IMG/VR virus record: IMGVR_UViG_3300046749_000201
Location: 1-42,357 of that record
Length of the DNA: 42,357 nt
Strand: one strand, 5' to 3'
Source: a virus
The notes below the pieces were generated by a model. The model saw only the letters and a list, made by a program, of their open reading frames with translations, did no database searches and was not told the origin of the DNA. Below are positions 18,883 through 33,271 of the stretch, one piece after another. A program made the translations under genes and the position numbers. Within the stretch, counting starts at the first letter, position 1; each line of letters begins with the position of its first letter.

Positions 18883-18914
18883 AGGAAAAAGAAAGGGAGT
18901 ATGAAACTCCCTTT
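18883..18914 (-). terminator. Intrinsic terminator of the long RNA
   Basis: Leftward RNA AAAGGGAGU (18906-18914), loop UUCAU, ACUCCCUUU (18892-18900), then CUUUUU. A perfect 9-bp stem at the end of the noncoding stretch. Confidence 0.85.
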
Positions 18915-19837
18915 ACTAATACAAGTCGCAACGCGTGTGGGACAGGGGACACTATCAAAGAAGTTCCAATACTTGGTTGAATACTATGACTTTCACATGG
19001 TTATCCAACACCCCCAAATCCCATTCTTGCCTTGCCATTTCAGTCTGTGCTAGGTCATTTTTACTTCGCTTGACTACCGAATCGGTTGCAGAGGCGAGCA
19101 TTAGTGGACAATTTGGTTATCTCATATACTATCTAGTTGTATCTGCCCCTCTTACCCTACTACAATCTCGGATTTATTTACAGCTAACCTCAAACGATTG
19201 TGTGGGATATCCTCGCAGGATACGATGCAATCTCTCTCTAAATCAGATTGCTTACCCTTGAAACAACTGTGCTCACATTCCTTGGTGGGGTTGACAGCTA
19301 AAGCTGAATCTCGCCTCGCACACTGAGTTGTTAAAAGTGTTGGTTTGGTCGAGAACTCCAACAAACTCCTGACTTTGATTAAGCTAGTGTCAGACTAACT
19401 AGGTTTGCTACTTGCTGTGTCGGTTTACACCTTTGGCTTTCATCTGATATTTTCGTTGTATCCACCCGTTCAATCACGCTTATATCTATCTGTTTCACTT
19501 CTGATTGTATAAGAAAATCCCGAAGGTTTAAAGTCTTCCGACTAGCAAAAGCGAGTGTAGAACTTACTACTTACCACCGACTGCCTTGCCTACTTGAATT
19601 TGGACTTATCGGACTTACTTTGGATTTACTGAATGTCTACCACTCTAACTCTCTTTACGCAGTGCCGTCTGCGAACATAACTCGACTTTTCATGGTTGGT
19701 CACGATGCTTAGAAATATCTCTTATGTTGAGTATCAAACTTACACCGACTAGACACTTAGGACATGCTAGTTTGCCCCCCATCGTTCAAAGCAGTTGGGT
19801 CGCTGTATTTATTTACTTTTTGTTTTTTTCAAAATAT
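18885..19837 (-). ncRNA. Giant structured noncoding RNA, GOLLD/ROOL-like candidate
   Basis: About 950 nt with no convincing gene on either strand, transcribed leftward from the promoter at 19844-19872 to the terminator at 18883. It looks clearly richer in G+C than its flanks. Perfect local hairpins include TATCCT-GCG-AGGATA (~19208-19222), GCAATCT/AGATTGC, CAGCT-TT-AGCTG, CGCAG/CTGCG, CTAGT/ACTAG and TTGG/CCAA. A tRNA-like element lies upstream on the same strand. Known giant phage RNAs (GOLLD, ROOL) have this size, setting and proximity to tRNAs, but I cannot match a family consensus by eye. Confidence 0.6.
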
Positions 19838-19843
19838 AGATAT

Positions 19844-19872
19844 ATTATATCCACTTTCTAACCATTTGTCAA
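19844..19872 (-). promoter_or_regulatory. Promoter of the long RNA
   Basis: Leftward TTGACA (19867-19872), 17-nt spacer, TATAAT (19844-19849); +1 near 19837. The first 9 nt of the spacer region (TTGACAAATGGTT) are shared with the promoter at 19982. Confidence 0.8.
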
Positions 19873-19981: not shown

Positions 19982-20010
19982 ATTATACTCACTCTAGAAC
20001 CATTTGTCAA
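19982..20010 (-). promoter_or_regulatory. Second tandem promoter upstream of the long RNA
   Basis: Leftward TTGACA (20005-20010), 17-nt spacer, TATAAT (19982-19987); +1 near 19975. No ORF starts between it and the 19844 promoter. Confidence 0.75.
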
Positions 20011-20656: not shown

Positions 20657-20762
20657 GAAGAAATGCGAATTATTTATAAAAATGCACATCGTTATTTCGG
20701 GGGCAGGGACGCGAAACCTCACAGCGGGTGTGCACAAATCTCCAAAAAACGCAAAATTTCTC

Positions 20763-20791
20763 TTGACACCCGCGCAAATCTGTGCTAAACT
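20763..20791 (+). promoter_or_regulatory. Rightward promoter, copy 1
   Basis: TTGACA (20763-20768), 17-nt spacer, TAAACT (20786-20791). Preceded by GCAAAATTTCTC, like copy 2 at 21016. Confidence 0.55.
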
Positions 20792-20821
20792 ATAAATAAG
20801 TCTTATTATAGACTAATACAT

Positions 20822-20883
20822 CACTTTGACACTCCGTTTTATCACTTTAGCACTTCGTTTATGCACTTCAGTTTTGCACTTTG
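20822..20883 (+). repeat. CACTTYR iteron cluster, six copies
   Basis: CACTTTG, CACTCCG, CACTTTA, CACTTCG, CACTTCA, CACTTTG start at 20822, 20830, 20843, 20851, 20864 and 20877, i.e. spacings 8, 13, 8, 13, 13. The regular phasing suggests protein-binding iterons. Confidence 0.65.
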
Positions 20884-21015
20884 GCGCCGGAGGTGGCTTT
20901 AAGCGGGTAAAGTGGCGTATTTATGCGGGTTTTGACGAAACAATCGATAATTAAAGTGGTTTTCACGAAACAGACTAGCAATATAAAAAATTCTTCGATA
21001 AATGCGAAAATTCTC

Positions 21016-21044
21016 TTGACACCCGCCTCAGAGTATGATAAAAT
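21016..21044 (+). promoter_or_regulatory. Rightward promoter, copy 2
   Basis: TTGACA (21016-21021), 17-nt spacer, TAAAAT (21039-21044). The stretch ATGATAAAATCGGCGC recurs at the Fur-box promoter (23824). Confidence 0.6.
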
Positions 21045-21106
21045 CGGCGCGATTTGATGCACAGATTATGCGAAGTAAAATAATTGAATTATTTTCGCTT
21101 TACCTA

Positions 21107-21134
21107 TTGATATTTCTAATAAAGTGCGTATAAT
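21107..21134 (+). promoter_or_regulatory. Promoter of the 46-aa gene
   Basis: TTGATA (21107-21112), 16-nt spacer, TATAAT (21129-21134); +1 near 21141 and ATG at 21142, so nearly leaderless. Confidence 0.65.
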
Positions 21135-21141
21135 ACATATT

Positions 21142-21282
21142 ATGAAAAACGAAAAGAAAGTTGAAAAAACAAAAGCAACATTAGTTCGTGAAGTGGAAGC
21201 TAAATTCAAAGTAAAAGATGGTTTCTTTGACTCTTTAGAGAGAGCTAACAAAGAAACAATTGTCAAATTACTCTCCCTTTAA
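21142..21282 (+). CDS. Small charged protein (46 aa), function unknown
   Basis: MKNEKKVEKTKATLVREVEA then 'DGFFDSLERANKETIVKLLSL'. Lys/Glu-rich N-terminus and an amphipathic C-terminal helix. It lies between two iteron clusters, has its own promoter and is followed by a strong terminator, so it could be an origin-associated regulator; this is inference. Confidence 0.6.
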   Translation: MKNEKKVEKTKATLVREVEAKFKVKDGFFDSLERANKETIVKLLSL

Positions 21283-21341
21283 GTGAACAGTTGTCTAAAA
21301 TTCGAAGTGTAAGTTACTTTGTTCCTCAAAACTAGGCAAAA

Positions 21342-21417
21342 GTCCCTATTGGCACGGGACTGAGCTCGCCAAACCCGACAAATGTCCCCGAGGAACGGAC
21401 AGGCGTCGGGTTTTTTT
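21342..21417 (+). terminator. Strong intrinsic terminator with preceding hairpin
   Basis: AAACCCGAC (21371-21379) pairs with GTCGGGTTT (21405-21413), inner TGTCC/GGACA stem, and a T run to 21417. A separate AGTCCC/GGGACT hairpin (~21342-21361) precedes it. Confidence 0.9.
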
Positions 21418-21439
21418 GTGAATTATTTTAAATTTTTCC

Positions 21440-21468
21440 TTGACAAAAGTAAAAATGTGTGCTACAAT
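21440..21468 (+). promoter_or_regulatory. Promoter reading into the DnaA-box region
   Basis: TTGACA (21440-21445), 17-nt spacer, TACAAT (21463-21468). No supported rightward gene follows for 700 nt; may make an origin transcript. Confidence 0.6.
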
Positions 21469-21512
21469 ACTAGGGTGGCGGGCGGGATACCCACGGAGAC
21501 TTGGGGATAACC

Positions 21513-21521
21513 TGTGGATAA
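21513..21521 (-). promoter_or_regulatory. Perfect DnaA box
   Basis: TGTGGATAA on the plus strand is the complement of the consensus DnaA box TTATCCACA. It lies between promoter 21440 and the second CACTYTG cluster, supporting an origin. Confidence 0.6.
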
Positions 21522-21546
21522 GTCGGCTTCGCCAAGGTAGACTTTG

Positions 21547-21629
21547 CACTTGTTTCGCTTTCGCACTCTGGCGCACAAGCGCTTCGCTTTACCACTTCAC
21601 TTTTTCACTCTGGCGCAGAGCGCACTGAT
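21547..21629 (+). repeat. Second CACTYTG repeat cluster
   Basis: CACTTG, CACTCTG, CACTTCA, CACTTTT, CACTCTG and CACTGAT start at 21547, 21564, 21593, 21598, 21606 and 21623; two are in CACTCTGGCGCA contexts, echoing CACTTTGGCGC of cluster 1. Confidence 0.5.
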
Positions 21630-21791
21630 GCAGTTCTCTAAATCTCAGGCAGGGGGTATCCCTCAAAATTAATTGACGAAAAAAAGAGTGAGGGTGGGAA
21701 ATCTTGAATAATCGCAATTTCCCAATCCTCAGAAGGTGGTCTTTGTTAATCCGAAAATTAGCATTTTTTCCTTCTTTTTGAAAAGTGGCAG

Positions 21792-21965
21792 TTATCTTGA
21801 AAGTTCGTAGAAGTTCGGTTGATGTTTTCCCTTCTCGGTTCTATCTAAGAAAATCTGATCTTTTCTCATTTTCCCCAAGTTCTCGATCTTGCGATAAAGT
21901 CTTGGTGTCAATCCCCTATTTTCTGTTTTCCCTTTAAGGTGTGTTTCCTTAGTTGATATAATCAT
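21792..21965 (-). CDS. Small winged-helix-like ORF (57 aa)
   Basis: Residues 'GLTPRLYRKIENLGKMRKDQ' then 'IFLDRTEKGKHQPNFYELSR' look like the recognition helix and wing of a wHTH domain, as at the ends of replication or regulatory proteins. The ATG at 21963-21965 overlaps the -10 box of the promoter at 21964-21991, so that promoter could not express the full frame; TTG at codon 19 would leave only the wing. It may be a remnant or be expressed from elsewhere. Confidence 0.4.
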   Translation of the reverse strand: MIISTKETHLKGKTENRGLTPRLYRKIENLGKMRKDQIFLDRTEKGKHQPNFYELSR

Positions 21966-21991
21966 TATAAGGATTTTCTGTCCTATGTCAA
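21964..21991 (-). promoter_or_regulatory. Leftward promoter
   Basis: Leftward TTGACA (21986-21991), 16-nt spacer, TATAAT (21964-21969); +1 near 21957. It would transcribe the wHTH-like ORF region and then into the origin. Confidence 0.55.
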
Positions 21992-22004
21992 CAATTATTT
22001 TAAA

Positions 22005-22133
22005 TTAATTTAATAAATTCACAATAATAAAAATCTGTAATACTAATACAATTAGAGGTATTACAGTTCTTATAAGTTCCATAATGTGATTATACTTATC
22101 AAGCCACCTTTCAAATCTATAAATTTTGTTCAT
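22005..22133 (-). CDS. Mini membrane protein (42 aa)
   Basis: MNKIYRFERWLDKYNHIMEL, then a hydrophobic helix to the end (VIPLIVLVLQIFIIVNLL). ATG follows directly after the T run of the terminator at 22139, so expression would need read-through or an unseen promoter. Confidence 0.45.
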   Translation of the reverse strand: MNKIYRFERWLDKYNHIMELIRTVIPLIVLVLQIFIIVNLLN

Positions 22134-22169
22134 AAAAAAAGGGAGTAAGTTTATTGGACTTACTCCCTT
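22134..22169 (-). terminator. Intrinsic terminator of the HAD operon
   Basis: Leftward RNA AAGGGAGUAAGU (22158-22169), 7-nt loop, ACUUACUCCCUU (22139-22150), then U run: a 12-bp perfect stem. Its AAGGGAGT core resembles the long-RNA terminator at 18892. Confidence 0.9.
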
Positions 22170-25376: not shown

Positions 25377-25562
25377 ATGATATATAGCACATATGTAGAC
25401 GGCAATAGAAAAGCCGATGTTATCAAATTAGACAATCACTGGGGTTGTCGATTATACGAAGATGGAAAACTTATAACAACAGAGTTTTACAAAGGGCATA
25501 GTGAAGCATACGCAGAAGATGCAGCAGAGAACTATGTACTAGGAATAAAAAATGCCGTATAG
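25377..25562 (+). CDS. Small protein linked to IscU, function unknown
   Basis: 61 aa. 'VIKLDNHWGCRLYEDGKLIT' and 'SEAYAEDAAENYVLGIK'. AGGAGA precedes ATG. Overlaps the IscU-like start by 11 nt. Confidence 0.6.
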   Translation: MIYSTYVDGNRKADVIKLDNHWGCRLYEDGKLITTEFYKGHSEAYAEDAAENYVLGIKNAV

Positions 25563-25995
25563 CAAAGAAGTAAATGATAGATTCTACGGAGTACTGAATA
25601 ATCCACAGGAGTTCAGTGTAGGACGCTTCGACCCAAAAGACCCAGACGTAGCAACTGGCATGACTGGAGCACCCGCTTGTGGTGACGTCATGAAGTTACA
25701 ATTAAAACTTGACCACGATGAAAAGATACTAGATGTCAAGTTCAAGACATATGGATGCGGTAGTGCAATTGCCTCGTCCACCCTGTTCGTAGATATGCTG
25801 AAAGGCAAAACTATCGAACAAGCCAAACAAATAAAAGATAGAGATATCGCTGAGGCATTACAGTTGCCTCCTATTAAATTACACTGTTCTGTTCTAGCCG
25901 AAGATTCTATTAAGAAAGCAATAGAAAATTGGGAGGAAAAAATTGAACATAGGAAACATAATCAATACGATTCATCGCTTGATGAAATCGGGTAG
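25552..25995 (+). CDS. iscU: IscU-like Fe-S cluster scaffold
   Basis: 147 aa. All three cluster-ligand cysteines are present: C43 (PACGDVMK, with D45), C69 (KTYGCGSAIASS) and C112, preceded by 'LPPIKLHC', the site that in host IscU contacts the HscA chaperone. Full family length and intact ligands suggest a working scaffold that could feed clusters into phage or host proteins. Followed after 12 nt by an IscA-like gene. Confidence 0.9.
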   Translation: MPYSKEVNDRFYGVLNNPQEFSVGRFDPKDPDVATGMTGAPACGDVMKLQLKLDHDEKILDVKFKTYGCGSAIASSTLFVDMLKGKTIEQAKQIKDRDIAEALQLPPIKLHCSVLAEDSIKKAIENWEEKIEHRKHNQYDSSLDEIG

Positions 25996-27111: not shown

Positions 27112-27625
27112 TAGAATTTCGAACGGTGTAGTTGGAACATTAATAGCTTTAAGCTTTATAGTAATTGCATCAGACTTAAATGCTACAGAAATAGTACATA
27201 AATTTGGTTCGCCTAGTTTTAGTGGGATTAATCAATCTGCACACTATTTAACTATTGACGAACAAGAAAGAACAAGAAAAGATGCACTTGCACAAAAAGC
27301 TCAAGATGCATTAGACGAGGCCCAAAGAGAAGCAGACAATACAACTCTCGCTAAATTCTTAAGAAACCTAGAAAGCAGAATTTATTCTACACTTGCAAAG
27401 GATATATCAGAATCTTTATTTGATTATAACAATCCTGGCACACTAGAGAATCCTGTAACTGGAGAAATCTGGTTAGAAGGCAACAGAATAATTTGGACAA
27501 ATAACGGAGTCACAATCACTCTAGTAGTTGAAGAATGGTTAGATGGAGTGTTGTTATCAACAACAACTATCGAAATACCAGTCGGAAGCTTCGGGGGATG
27601 TTTTAGTGACTGCGCGACTGGCTAA
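27089..27625 (+). CDS. csgF: CsgF-like curli assembly protein
   Basis: 178 aa. Signal peptide ~1-32, then 'IVHKFGSPSFSG' which matches the CsgF N-terminus ('...QFRNPNFGG') that inserts in the CsgG pore. Followed by a coiled coil (~58-85) and a beta-rich end with 'GCFSDC'. Bacterial CsgF couples curlin secretion to nucleation at the cell surface. Longer than the usual ~140 aa. Overlaps CsgG by 20 nt. Confidence 0.8.
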   Translation: MNERKLNNRISNGVVGTLIALSFIVIASDLNATEIVHKFGSPSFSGINQSAHYLTIDEQERTRKDALAQKAQDALDEAQREADNTTLAKFLRNLESRIYSTLAKDISESLFDYNNPGTLENPVTGEIWLEGNRIIWTNNGVTITLVVEEWLDGVLLSTTTIEIPVGSFGGCFSDCATG

Positions 27626-28502
27626 TGTATTAGCGCCTTTACTACTTGTCGGCTGTGCTTCATTTGGAGCACCGCAACAATATGACAACTGTTATAAATT
27701 CGAAGAAGGATTTAATAAAGATGTTGTAACAGGAATTGCAAAAGCAGGCACAGATAGAATGATATGTAGGACAGGACCTGTCATACAGCCTAGCGCTACT
27801 CAACAATTACTCAATTTACCATACCCCAACCAAAAGACAGTTGTAGCAGTATACAACTTTGGAGATAACTCGGGTCAAAGAAAAGGTGGAGACAATATAG
27901 CTAGTTTTAGTACTGCTGTAACCCAGGGAGCTCACCATATTTTGATTGAAGCTTTGAGGGACGCAGGTAGAGGAAATTGGTTTGTAGTCGTAGAGAGAAC
28001 TGGACTTGATGCTTTGACAAAAGAAAGACAACTTGTAAGAAGTACTTTTGAAGCATACAATAAAGGGGCAGATGGAAAAACAATTTTAAAACCACTACTA
28101 TATGCAGGAATGATTATAGAAGGTGGTATAGTTAGTTATGATACTAACATAAGAACTGGTGGTAACGGTGCTCGATATCTAGGAATAGGTATGAAGAATC
28201 AATATCGTGAGGATGTCGTTACAGTAACATTAAGAGCTGTATTAGTTCAAACAGGGGAGGTCTTGTTAAATGTTACAACCACAAAAACTATACTATCTAC
28301 TGGAGGTGGAGGCGATGTATTCAGGTTTATAGAACTTGGGACAGAACTCGTTGAAATCGAAAGTGGTAGTACAGAGAACGAGCCAGTAGGACAAGCTGTA
28401 AGAGCTGCTATAGAAGCAGCTGTATATGGCCTAGTTGTCCAGGGACTCGAAAAAGAGGTTTGGGACTTCGACTACCCAAGCCTGGGAGAAAAGAATGAAT
28501 AA
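27606..28502 (+). CDS. csgG: CsgG-like curli secretion channel lipoprotein
   Basis: 298 aa from GTG 27606 (GGGGGA 7 nt upstream). A perfect lipobox LVGC ends at C17. Conserved CsgG blocks: 'TVVAVYNFGDNSGQRK', 'GAHHILIEALRDAGRGNW', 'VVVERTGLDALTKERQ', 'LLYAGMIIEGGIVSYDTN', 'VTVTLRAVLVQTGEVL'. CsgG is a nonameric outer-membrane pore for unfolded curlin. Full length suggests function. An ATG at 27543 is in frame but far upstream in csgF. Confidence 0.9.
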   Translation: MTARLANVLAPLLLVGCASFGAPQQYDNCYKFEEGFNKDVVTGIAKAGTDRMICRTGPVIQPSATQQLLNLPYPNQKTVVAVYNFGDNSGQRKGGDNIASFSTAVTQGAHHILIEALRDAGRGNWFVVVERTGLDALTKERQLVRSTFEAYNKGADGKTILKPLLYAGMIIEGGIVSYDTNIRTGGNGARYLGIGMKNQYREDVVTVTLRAVLVQTGEVLLNVTTTKTILSTGGGGDVFRFIELGTELVEIESGSTENEPVGQAVRAAIEAAVYGLVVQGLEKEVWDFDYPSLGEKNE

Positions 28503-29172
28503 GATAATTGGACTATTCGCGATTGTTCTATCTTTTTCAGCGTTCGCGGGTAATAATGATTTATATATTACTCAAACAGGTACAGGACTTACTTTGACTA
28601 TTGACCAAATAGGTGCTACTAACAATGTTGGTACATCTCAAAATAGAGCAACTTTGTCAGGTACTTCAATGACAGTAGACATAGACCAGATTGGAGATAC
28701 TAACTCCTTCTTGGCTTCACTACTTCAAGGCAACTCATCTAGTTGGACTTACAAAGTCACTGGTGATAGTAACACCGCTACTTTAGCAGGTGGAGCTTCA
28801 GGAGATATTGCTAGTTCCGATTTTGACTATATCACGATTGGTGACAGTAATACTCTTTCATGGACTCAGGGTGCTGCTTCGACAGCCACTGGAGCCAACA
28901 CTGACTTTAGCATAACAGGAACTTCAAATGCTGTAACAGGTACTTGTGAAGTTGTGGGTTGTATAAATAATTGGACTATTAGTGGAAACAGTAATAGTAT
29001 TACTACATTACAGACAGGTTCTGCTGACCATCAAATCACAGCATCTTTAACTGGAAGTTCTAATACTGTAACTATTGACCAAACTGATACTGCAAGTACG
29101 AACGTTGCAAACATAGTATCTACCACGTCAAGTGGTACTATTGATGTAGATCAATGCGCATCTGGCTGTTAA
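28495..29172 (+). CDS. Curlin-like secreted amyloid protein 1
   Basis: 225 aa from ATG 28495 (GGGAGA). Signal peptide 1-18 (LFAIVLSFSAFA). At least six repeats of the CsgA/CsgB kind: 'TLTIDQIGATN', 'VDIDQIGDTN', 'VTGDSNTATL', 'ISGNSNSITTLQTG', 'LTGSSNTVTIDQTD'. Ends with QCASGC, a CX3C not found in E. coli curlins. Overlaps csgG by 8 nt. Confidence 0.8.
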   Translation: MNKIIGLFAIVLSFSAFAGNNDLYITQTGTGLTLTIDQIGATNNVGTSQNRATLSGTSMTVDIDQIGDTNSFLASLLQGNSSSWTYKVTGDSNTATLAGGASGDIASSDFDYITIGDSNTLSWTQGAASTATGANTDFSITGTSNAVTGTCEVVGCINNWTISGNSNSITTLQTGSADHQITASLTGSSNTVTIDQTDTASTNVANIVSTTSSGTIDVDQCASGC

Positions 29173-30254
29173 TACTTCTCAGTATACCGGCCTTTTCAAC
29201 AGAAATAGGAGAGATATCTGAGCTAAAAGGAAACGGAGAGATTACTAGAGTAAACTCTAGTGAAACTTTTACCGCAGAACTAGACTCAGATATCTTTTCA
29301 TTCGATGATGTAAGAACCGGAAACGGTAGACTTGCAATAGAGTTCTTAGATGACTCTGTAGTTAAATTGACAGAACACTCGAAATTAATTATAGATGAAT
29401 ATATCTTTGACCCAGACCCAAGTAAGAGTAAAATGTCTCTTCAAATGGCATCTGGAACAGCTCGATTTATTTCGGGCGCTTTTGGAAAAATTAATAAAGA
29501 AAACATAACTATTAATACTCCAACAGCAACTATCGGTATTCGTGGTACAGACTTTACAACAACTGTAGACGAATTAGGCAGAAGCTTAGTTATACTACTA
29601 CCTGATAAAAATGGAGATTCATCAGGAGAGATAACAGTAACAACTGCAGCAGGAGTAGAGATACTCAATGAGCCTTTTCAGGCTACTATGGTTTCAGCAT
29701 GGGAACAACCACCCACACAAGCTGTTACTCTAGCAAACATGACACTTGGACTAATTGATAATATGTTGATAGTTCAAAGACCAGACGAAGTCGAACAAGC
29801 AGTAGAAGAACAACAAGCAGGAACTTCACCTACCGCAGATTTAGATAAAGACTTTTTCGAAGATGCACCAGACTTAAATTGTGATGCTCTAGTAGAGGAA
29901 TGTGACGAAGAAAATGATGAAGTTACAAGACTAGACATTGACTTATTAAGTGTAGAGTTTCTCGTAGATTTACTGGCACTAGTGGAGACTACTAGTAAAA
30001 AGAGAAACCAGACTTCAGAACTAAATGGAGTAGAACTCGAAGGTATCATTGCAGGCTTTGACCCAATATACCAAACATACACTTTCGTGGAAGAAGGAAT
30101 GATTTATTTTGTACACGAAGGACAGAACAACTACGATATAGGTATCGATATAAATGCAGGTACTTATTTATACATAAACAACGCAGGAGTAATATTGGAG
30201 GTAAATATAAATGGTGCGGGTGATAACGTTATTATTATTAATCAGTCCCCTTAG
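29154..30254 (+). CDS. Secreted FecR-domain protein
   Basis: 366 aa. Signal peptide 1-15, FecR domain ~45-140: 'DDVRTGNGRLAIEFLDDSVVKL', 'ASGTARFISGAF', 'TPTATIGIRGTDF'. C-terminal ~200 residues are acidic and include 'LNCDALVEEC', then a beta-rich end. Classic FecR is an anti-sigma transducer with an N-terminal cytoplasmic segment; this one lacks that and seems to be entirely periplasmic. FecR genes often neighbour CHASE2 cyclases, as here. Confidence 0.8.
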   Translation: MRIWLLILLSIPAFSTEIGEISELKGNGEITRVNSSETFTAELDSDIFSFDDVRTGNGRLAIEFLDDSVVKLTEHSKLIIDEYIFDPDPSKSKMSLQMASGTARFISGAFGKINKENITINTPTATIGIRGTDFTTTVDELGRSLVILLPDKNGDSSGEITVTTAAGVEILNEPFQATMVSAWEQPPTQAVTLANMTLGLIDNMLIVQRPDEVEQAVEEQQAGTSPTADLDKDFFEDAPDLNCDALVEECDEENDEVTRLDIDLLSVEFLVDLLALVETTSKKRNQTSELNGVELEGIIAGFDPIYQTYTFVEEGMIYFVHEGQNNYDIGIDINAGTYLYINNAGVILEVNINGAGDNVIIINQSP

Positions 30255-31005
30255 TTTTGCTGGGGATAATGAAGTTTCAATTATAACTAAAGGAACTAAT
30301 AATCAAATTACTACTAAGCAAATTGGTAATGGTAATACTACTAATATTCTTTGTGGTGCAAACTCAAGTGGTTCTGTGCCCGGTAGTAACTATACCTCTC
30401 ATTCTTGCACTAATGCCGTATGGAATGTCAGTGTTGACGGAAACAGTAATAGTGTTAGAATGTATACTGTATGGTCAAACAATATAGGAAATGAAAGCAC
30501 CATAACTATAGAGGGTAATGATAACTACGCATATATTGACCAAGACGAAGATGATAATACTGTAACTATTACTCAAACAGGAAACAGTAATCACGCAGAA
30601 GCATTAGGCTCAGGAGATGACAATGTTTACTCAACAACTCAAACAGGAAATAATAAGTATAGCAAAATATTCTTTTTCGGGGATGATTCTGATATCACTG
30701 TTAATCAGTATGGTACTGGCACACACAATTCTTATATCTATGGAAATGGTATTGCGCACAATAACTCGGTAAATGTCATTCAATATGGCAGCGGTAATAA
30801 GGATGCAGACATATTCTTTTATAGTGCTGATAATGATGTAGATTTAACACAATACGGAACAGGAGCTCATGTAGCAAATATGAAGTTTTATACAACAGAC
30901 TACAATGTAGATGTTACTCAACTAGGGTCTACGAATCAAACATACACAGCTACATTTAATTGCACTCAAAACTGCACAAAAACTATAAGTATAACCCAAC
31001 AATGA
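30211..31005 (+). CDS. Curlin-like secreted amyloid protein 2
   Basis: 264 aa. Signal peptide 1-17. Many repeats: 'TKQIGNGNTTN', 'VTITQTGNSNHAE', 'YSTTQTGNNKYSK', 'ITVNQYGTGTHNS', 'VNVIQYGSGNKDA', 'VDLTQYGTGAHVA', 'VDVTQLGSTNQTY', the last four in a regular period. Ends with NCTQNC plus a short tail. Overlaps FecR gene by 44 nt and the next by ATGA. Confidence 0.8.
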   Translation: MVRVITLLLLISPLSFAGDNEVSIITKGTNNQITTKQIGNGNTTNILCGANSSGSVPGSNYTSHSCTNAVWNVSVDGNSNSVRMYTVWSNNIGNESTITIEGNDNYAYIDQDEDDNTVTITQTGNSNHAEALGSGDDNVYSTTQTGNNKYSKIFFFGDDSDITVNQYGTGTHNSYIYGNGIAHNNSVNVIQYGSGNKDADIFFYSADNDVDLTQYGTGAHVANMKFYTTDYNVDVTQLGSTNQTYTATFNCTQNCTKTISITQQ

Positions 31006-31502
31006 AAAGAGATAAAATTAGAGACAGTATAGAACTTACTACTTTAATAAGTATATTTCTATTTTCAGTACTAGCACTAACCCCTAATGTAAACGCCTAC
31101 GAATTACCAGACACTCCTTTTGATTTTGAACAAATGAAGGCAGACGCAGAACTAATCAAACAATCAGATAAACCTTTATTCGACCTCAAAATTGAAGAAC
31201 CAGTTTCAACTGTTCAGTGGGTTACATTCGGAACATTACAAATTGCAGACATCTATACCACATACCGTGGACTTAAATATAATTGTGTTAGAGAAGTAAA
31301 TCCAATTGCTGGAGAAAGACCATCAGTACCAAAGATGTTCTTTATTAAAACAGCAGTTCTTTCCCCGGCAATCTATGCGGAACGACAAACACTAACACTA
31401 AAACCAAAAACTATGGATGAAATAAATTTTCTAATGGCAATAGTTGTAAATCATAATTACAAAGTATGGCATAAAGCAGAACAAAGATGTATCAAAAGAT
31501 AA
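31002..31502 (+). CDS. DUF5658-like small exported/membrane protein
   Basis: 166 aa from ATG 31002. N-terminal hydrophobic segment (13-32) ending NAYE suggests signal or anchor. 'TLQIADIYTTYRGLKYNCVR' and 'EVNPIAGE' resemble DUF5658-type 'DlxTTyxgl...vxExNPl' motifs. Role in the curli module unknown. Overlaps the cyclase by 16 nt. Confidence 0.5.
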   Translation: MKRDKIRDSIELTTLISIFLFSVLALTPNVNAYELPDTPFDFEQMKADAELIKQSDKPLFDLKIEEPVSTVQWVTFGTLQIADIYTTYRGLKYNCVREVNPIAGERPSVPKMFFIKTAVLSPAIYAERQTLTLKPKTMDEINFLMAIVVNHNYKVWHKAEQRCIKR

Positions 31503-33271
31503 TCACAATAGTACTATTTATGGGATTGCTTATCTGGAATCCATACCCTTTTCAAGTTTTAGAACTAAAAACCTTTGATTGGTTTATAATGAATACTGAG
31601 CCTGTACAAAATGACAATATTGTAATAGTAGACTTAGACGAAGAATTTATAAAAGATTACAAAGGTTGGCCACTACCTAGAACAGCTTTCGCAGACTTAA
31701 TAGCAACAACAAGAGCTGTATCAGGAATAACAGTGCTTATGCCCAATCCCGATATTCGTAATACTGGAAATGACGAAGTATTGGCACTAAGAATGAATTA
31801 TACACCAACAGTCCTTGCTAGTGCAGCATCGACACAAGTAACTGGCACTAACCCTCATGTAGGTACTGCCCAGTTAGGAGAGGACCCATTACCATGGCTA
31901 TATCAATACCCAGGAATTTTACCTACAGAATCTATGCTGGCGTCAAAGGCAAAGGGACTAGGAGTAGTAACCGCTACACCGGAAATAGACGGGGTTACTC
32001 GTCGTATTCCCCTAGTCGTAAACGTAGGGTCAAAATTATACCCAAGCTTCGGACTAGAACTCTTAAGAGTAGGAACAGGCGATATAAGTTACCAAATAAA
32101 AACAGAAGAACAGGGTTTAGCTTGGGTTAGAGTCCCAACTTATCCTGTAATGAATACAGATGCAAATGGACGTATCTGGTTAAACTGGAACACAAAATTT
32201 TACAAACAAACAGCGAAGGAATATCTTAGTAATCCAATTCAAGCTCCCTTCGTTATATTCGGCACGACTGCAGAGGGTGTAACAAACCCTGTGCCGACCC
32301 CTGCGGGGGCTAAGTATCCTCATGAGATACAAGCAAACATTTTACACAACCTTATTCAAGGTACAGCACCTAGTTCACCTACTTGGGCTTCTGCAGCTGA
32401 GTATGGAATCGGACTACTTGCCCTCATCATTTTAGCACTAGCTACAAGGTCAGTTTGGTTATCGGTACCGAGTTTAGTACTTGTTGTCGGTGGTTCTTCT
32501 TATGGAGCCTGGTATGCCTATCAATCTTCGTATCTCATAGACGCTAGTGGAATCGTAATTATCTGCGTTTTGTTTTGGGCATATCATTCGTTTCTGAGTT
32601 TCATATCCGAGTATCGTCAGAAACTTCGAATCAAACAACAATTCGGCACGTACGTTAGTCCCGACTTGGTTAAAAAACTCCAGGAAGACCCATCATTGCT
32701 GAGATTGGGTGGGTCAACAGAACAACTAACTTTTCTTTTCTCGGATATACGAGGATTTACCCCGATTTCTGAAAAATACCAAAAGAATCCGCAAGGACTT
32801 ACTGTTCTGATTAATAGATTTTTAGACAATCAAACTAAGATAATTCTCAAACATGGGGGAACAATAGACAAATATATGGGAGACTGCATCATGGCATTTT
32901 GGGGTGCTCCTCTTCCAGACGAAAACCATAAGCAAAATGCAACAGCTGCCTTGATAGAAATGAAAAAGGCATTGGAGGAATTAAATGAAAGATTCAGAGA
33001 AGAAGGCCTGGATACGATTAATACGGGCGCGGGCATCAACACCGGCCTCTGTGTCGTCGGAAACTTTGGAAGTAGCAGTAGGTTTGATTACAGTGTTCTT
33101 GGTGATAGCGTCAATCTGGCTGCTAGGTTAGAATCAAGTTGTAAGAATTACGATGTGGATAATGTCATTTCTGAGCACAGCTTGGTTGATGGCTACGAGT
33201 ACGACTTTCTTGACGAAGTAACTGTCAAAGGTAAGTCCGAACCTGTTAAAATCTACACCATACGAAAATAG
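31487..33271 (+). CDS. CHASE2-adenylate cyclase, class III
   Basis: 594 aa. N-terminal TM, CHASE2 sensor ~25-295, three TM helices ~303-370, then a class III cyclase domain ~385-594: metal D420 (LFSDIRGFT), K462 and D466 (DKYMGDCIMAFWG), 'GINTGLCVVGNFGSS', S536 at the base-selecting position, N543 and R547 (SVNLAARLE). These match adenylate rather than guanylate cyclases. It would sense an extracytoplasmic signal and make cAMP. Its stop TAG lies in a promoter box. Confidence 0.9.
   Translation: MYQKIITIVLFMGLLIWNPYPFQVLELKTFDWFIMNTEPVQNDNIVIVDLDEEFIKDYKGWPLPRTAFADLIATTRAVSGITVLMPNPDIRNTGNDEVLALRMNYTPTVLASAASTQVTGTNPHVGTAQLGEDPLPWLYQYPGILPTESMLASKAKGLGVVTATPEIDGVTRRIPLVVNVGSKLYPSFGLELLRVGTGDISYQIKTEEQGLAWVRVPTYPVMNTDANGRIWLNWNTKFYKQTAKEYLSNPIQAPFVIFGTTAEGVTNPVPTPAGAKYPHEIQANILHNLIQGTAPSSPTWASAAEYGIGLLALIILALATRSVWLSVPSLVLVVGGSSYGAWYAYQSSYLIDASGIVIICVLFWAYHSFLSFISEYRQKLRIKQQFGTYVSPDLVKKLQEDPSLLRLGGSTEQLTFLFSDIRGFTPISEKYQKNPQGLTVLINRFLDNQTKIILKHGGTIDKYMGDCIMAFWGAPLPDENHKQNATAALIEMKKALEELNERFREEGLDTINTGAGINTGLCVVGNFGSSSRFDYSVLGDSVNLAARLESSCKNYDVDNVISEHSLVDGYEYDFLDEVTVKGKSEPVKIYTIRK

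Follow-up and report, generated by a model that had tools for sequence, protein, structure and literature searches.

The window analysed here is the complete IMG/VR virus record IMGVR_UViG_3300046749_000201 (42,357 bases). The locus of interest contains the following features:

18885-19837, minus strand: noncoding RNA gene of about 950 nt, with a promoter and a terminator at its ends, ORFs that are not conserved, and covarying homologues.
19844-19872, minus strand: sigma-70 promoter TTGACA-17-TATAAT, matching the consensus at 12/12 positions; near-consensus promoters occupy the equivalent site in most relatives.
18884-18914, minus strand: intrinsic terminator (hairpin 18914-18892) with a 9-bp stem and a U-rich tail.
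19982-20010, minus strand: second consensus promoter, upstream, followed by a short AU-rich hairpin at about 19913-19883.

The original prediction had described a G+C-rich stretch with no convincing ORF, bounded by a promoter and a terminator on one strand, and both signals were confirmed on the minus strand at the positions claimed. The G+C content of the RNA region is indeed higher (40-43%, vs about 36% in the surroundings). The longest ORFs inside it have 108 aa on the plus strand and 70 aa on the minus strand. No conserved ORF was found in the RNA block among 55 non-redundant relatives; their mean longest sense-strand ORF is 55.8 codons vs 54.3 in shuffled sequences, which is the chance level. 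An internal promoter of consensus quality was not found inside the block.

The window phage is classified as an uncultured T5-like phage. Its large terminase shares 49% identity with the counterpart of Pectobacterium phage My1 and also resembles those of other T5-like phages, and the protein adjoining the RNA gene matches the T5 D5-like regulator family (E 1e-6). Cultured phages showed no DNA similarity to the window or to the relative L033, and no match to the neighbour protein. The neighbour gene was found in one short GTDB contig within a Flavobacteriaceae MAG, which is a weak hint of the host. The plus strand at 27543-33271 of this T5-like contig encodes a CsgG protein, a FecR protein and a CHASE2 cyclase, together with two proteins that carry curlin-like Q-x-G-x-x-N repeats (judged by eye). 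In pelagimyophages, CsgF/CsgG have been reported without CsgA/CsgB (PMC7029224); a pelagimyophage identity, prompted by the curli genes, was dropped because the terminase is nearest to those of T5-like phages. The phage contig also encodes a protein with a NifU-like iron-sulfur scaffold domain (25552-25995, plus strand).

Several other elements surround the RNA gene. The region 20010-19883 (minus strand), with the second promoter and the AU-rich hairpin, possibly encodes a separate RNA of about 100 nt; part of it is 92% identical in L012, and tandem promoters are present in most close relatives. A second structured element, at 20147-20036 (minus strand), follows the D5-like gene; Rfam gave no significant match to it. 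Its parts are a long stem (TTTAAGTCAGGG/CCTTGACTTAAG) in which relatives show compensatory changes, a hairpin resembling a T arm (GTTGG-TTCAACT-CCAAC), and a core like AAGTGTCTACGGAAGCAC that is conserved. The adjacent "tRNA-like element" proposed earlier (about 20132-20047) was not borne out: ARAGORN found neither a tRNA nor a tmRNA in the window, and the tRNA-Sec match is at chance level (E 0.88). True tRNA-Glu genes occur in L004-L009, only upstream of the block, where they separate the neighbour gene from the RNA; a degenerate tRNA array was rejected, as tRNAs are absent from the block in every relative. A second long intergenic stretch (20700-22150), with up to 48% G+C and conserved in blocks in relatives, carries repeats like GTGCGAAAGCGAAAC and TTATCCACAGGTTATCC (DnaA-box-like), and is possibly a replication origin. 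On the other side of the RNA gene, a small basic protein (MKFKKSHREYKRG...KPKVVQKCMNELTRRG) is encoded at 18760-18545 (minus strand); 49 of the 55 relatives keep it immediately after the RNA, and a relative's copy had no match in the cultured phage collection.

The homologue set comprised 80 IMG/VR contigs, which were found with the neighbouring protein as bait, and the sampling is thus tied to that gene. In 76/80 contigs a promoter-bounded block of 0.6-1.3 kb was present at or near the equivalent place, and the order was recurrent: the gene, one or two near-consensus promoters, the block, and the promoter of the next gene. A terminator-like hairpin closes the block in 53/55 non-redundant relatives, and nearly all relatives have one promoter and one terminator per block. 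Covariance models were built for two conserved domains (R1 for D1 and R2 for D2) and searched against 694 kb. R1 gave 43 matches (42 loci and the window) and R2 gave 62 (61 loci and the window), all on the expected strand, with E up to 0.5 and nearly all far lower. In the larger contigs the significant match is single and located at the RNA locus. The window copy is a divergent member of the family.

The elements of the two domains are listed below. Alignments were made with MAFFT from sequence only, structure being ignored; the helices were picked by eye on the very alignments used for counting, and the changes given here are tallies over sequences, not over independent events.

19653-19741, minus strand: domain D1, pseudoknot 1 and a hairpin (window match to R1, E 4.9e-9).
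19731-19729 with 19721-19719, minus strand: D1 pseudoknot stem A, CTC/GAG, which is GTC/GAC in relatives.
19728-19723 (loop) with 19679-19674, minus strand: D1 pseudoknot stem B, 6/6 pairs changed on both sides, up to 5 pair types each.
19658-19673, minus strand: D1 hairpin CGCAG/CTGCG, 100% of cells paired (22 sequences), double changes in 4/5 pairs.
19419-19550, minus strand: domain D2, a hairpin, pseudoknot 2 and an internal-loop hairpin (window match to R2, E 1.2e-13; matches in about 60 loci).
19532-19543, minus strand: D2 hairpin AGTC-GGAA-GACT, with GC, CG, UA and AU variants at its pairs.
19525-19522 with 19501-19498, and loop 19513-19508 with 19484-19479, minus strand: D2 pseudoknot, every pair changed on both sides.
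19446-19462, minus strand: D2 internal-loop hairpin GATA(C..A)TATC, with nearly invariant pairs and a covarying closing pair.

In D1, the pairing partner of the loop of a three-pair hairpin is a strand located about 45 nt further downstream, and a five-pair hairpin follows. Counted per sequence in 22 relatives, 96.6% of the cells are paired, vs 71% in shuffles and 32-47% with the partners slid; double changes occur in 15/18 pairs, and the covariation score is 0.678 vs 0.214 +/- 0.020 when shuffled. D2 echoes this theme: the loop of its second hairpin pairs downstream, and a further hairpin, the internal loop of which is conserved, comes next. In 15 relatives 91.5% of the D2 cells are paired, with a score of 0.551 vs 0.174 shuffled. 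None of 500 shuffles reached the main covariation scores. RNAalifold independently returned the D1 helices as well as part of D2. Moreover, the pairs are kept in members outside the training sets, for example L066, L031, L032, L011 and L078 for D1, and L040, L044, L049 and L053 for D2. The order and strand of D1 and D2 are constant among relatives. A kissing interaction of the D1 hairpin loop with the conserved CAGTAA was checked by eye, and no covariation was seen. Two covarying pseudoknots and several hairpins lie in the 5' part of about 400 nt. An additional 5' hairpin, GTGA-GGCA-TCAC, is present in many relatives; its stem occurs in six versions, and its GGC loop can pair with the GCC that follows. 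The 5'-most part of the window copy is without this first hairpin. Among the cells counted, G-U is frequent and A-C mismatches are rare, and therefore the minus strand is likely to be the RNA.

In the 3' half, hairpin modules form a mosaic, and their positions differ among phages. Its main elements are as follows:

19394-19389/19373-19368 and 19363-19358/19343-19338, minus strand: helices common to L010 and L027 (RNAalifold).
19330-19318/19272-19262 and 19251-19245/19233-19227, minus strand: further helices common to L010 and L027 (RNAalifold).
19288-19315, minus strand: mobile hairpin module GCGAGATTCA-GCTTTAGC-TGTCAA, the motif of which is present in 23/55 relatives.

The helices between 19227 and 19394 show some compensatory changes among 4 sequences (RNAalifold), and part of the 3' half of the window RNA is about 80% identical to that of L010. 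The mobile module of 22 nt (GATTCA-stem-TTTA-stem-TGTCAA) has several compensated stem versions, and sits at relative positions from 0.23 to 0.70 of the RNA length in the 23 relatives. A hairpin AGTAGTAGGGCAAGTCCCACGC was seen inside the terminator loop of L012, L015, L022 and L039 and elsewhere in the RNA of relatives, and its recurrence is another sign of module mobility.

Folding energies did not reveal this structure. With z = +1.92, the window RNA has a predicted fold of lower stability than each of the 20 shuffles, and the many perfect hairpins are therefore no evidence alone. Among 17 family members the folding-energy z scattered around zero; the single-sequence minimum free energy, a measure that ignores pseudoknots, gave no structure signal in the window or its relatives. 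Folding energy as proof of structure was dropped, since shuffled sequence folds at least as stably. The original description of the RNA as highly structured thus holds by covariation across homologues, but not by local hairpins. It had also suggested that homologues be collected and analysed for covariation, and covarying pairs were found in these sequence-only alignments; the outcomes named beforehand as speaking against an RNA gene (conserved coding, or no covariation) did not occur.

Known RNA families were compared by covariance models, as had been proposed for GOLLD, ROOL and HEARO. No family of Rfam 15 matches the RNA at gathering or relaxed E-values, and only chance-level matches were seen in the window and the scanned relatives. 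The GOLLD model (RF02032) gave nothing at gathering in the window, nor at E<=10 in the RNA region with permissive filters; in a directed search 0/15 records were above the cut-off, and the lone GOLLD match was 15 nt long and located elsewhere. The ROOL model (RF03087) matched none of 15 records at E<=10, in a directed search in which no positive control gave a signal, and cmscan gave no ROOL match either. The HEARO and OLE models also had no Rfam match in the window or the scanned relatives. The exact RNA pattern is absent from GTDB genomes (pattern search), and no description of the RNA was found among open-licence PMC papers. Membership of GOLLD or ROOL, which the original prediction had considered, is therefore not supported, no model match having been obtained in the window or relatives; its other option, a new class, stands.

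The homologues keep the promoter-RNA-terminator layout without a conserved ORF and with many compensatory changes, and such changes across homologues identify a structured noncoding RNA. The locus is very probably a stand-alone gene for a large (about 950 nt) structured noncoding RNA of a T5-like phage, in a family not in Rfam. As the homologues have covarying structure, with no Rfam match and no cultured-phage or GTDB RNA match, the RNA is judged to be a new family of large structured phage RNA, which is similar in kind to GOLLD and ROOL but not a member of either. Since coding is absent, the pseudoknots are conserved and the periphery is modular, we infer that the RNA acts as a folded molecule, not as a message or antisense. 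The consensus sigma-70 promoter suggests recognition by the unmodified host polymerase, so the minus-strand transcript would probably be made early and strongly. The conserved 5' domain might be the core of a compact RNA particle, with the exchangeable 3' hairpins as its peripheral modules. Tentatively, and as the likeliest of the mechanisms considered, the fold may build such a compact, probably multimeric particle in the infected cell, in the fashion of GOLLD and ROOL. With more reserve, this might be a third giant phage RNA family, unrelated in sequence to GOLLD and ROOL, that self-assembles into a particle in the course of infection, its outer hairpins evolving through exchange of modules around a pseudoknotted core that is retained.

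Other explanations differ in what the fold is for. The RNA might serve a dedicated protein as its scaffold, in the way that HEARO serves IsrB and OLE its associated proteins; we regard this as somewhat doubtful. One candidate partner is the small basic protein of about 70 aa encoded just downstream (18760-18545), a K/R-rich homologue of which lies within 1 kb downstream of the RNA in the 49 relatives mentioned above; however, its gene has its own promoter, the distance from the RNA ranges from about 70 to 750 nt, no PHROG family matches the protein, and in a phage genome this compact, neighbouring genes say little about a shared function. No IsrB/TnpB-like or OapA-like gene was found among the subset of neighbours searched in PHROGs and Pfam. 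Short modules that shift place among phages, as independent units might, would also fit a precursor processed into several small regulatory RNAs, each module being a separate sRNA. This is unlikely given the single promoter and terminator per block in nearly all relatives, the constant order and strand of D1 and D2, and the lack of an internal consensus-quality promoter.

A very divergent GOLLD or ROOL RNA would share the size, the phage setting, the nearby tRNA gene of some relatives and the conserved and variable halves. It is nevertheless highly improbable, because no match was obtained at E<=10 in the window, nor with RF02032 and RF03087 in 15 records, and because the conserved half is at the 5' end, not at the 3' end as in GOLLD. 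The mosaic sequence, with blocks exchanged between phages, could also suggest protein-coding DNA that has decayed or been overlooked, or an element acting at the DNA level, for example a recombination spacer; this is hardly credible, as ORF lengths are those of chance, pairs are upheld by compensatory changes, and the G-U wobble is strand-specific.

With the folded RNA preferred, the existence of an independent family, shared by most of the sampled relatives, points to large folded RNA as a recurrent phage tool. Dozens of divergent homologues are now to hand for structure work. Moreover, Rfam-based annotation overlooks a kilobase-scale gene in uncultured phages.

Very few natural RNAs close to 1 kb in length are known to have an elaborate fold that is conserved. 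OLE and HEARO are likewise large conserved bacterial noncoding RNAs with elaborate structure, whereas their models do not match the window RNA. ROOL is also a large, structured, phage-associated RNA of unknown function; however, its model has 574 positions vs about 950 nt here, and no common conserved element was found. GOLLD and ROOL form RNA-only multimers with an unknown role, and RNA-only cages are known from large phage RNAs that lie close to tRNA genes and have one half conserved and the other divergent (PMC12286853). GOLLD assembles into a homo-14-mer nanocage, and its expression rises at lysis (PMC12286853). The likeness to GOLLD (RF02032) is in the general plan: a stand-alone phage RNA of at least 800 nt, with pseudoknots, and with one conserved and one divergent half. 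GOLLD is often near tRNA genes, and here tRNA-Glu adjoins the RNA in L004-L009; large size, phage location and tRNA proximity are present in this family (blocks of the size given above, on viral contigs), but are not specific to GOLLD. The two differ in that the conserved half is 3' in GOLLD and 5' in the window RNA family, and in that the window RNA has a consensus sigma-70 promoter and belongs to a T5-like phage.
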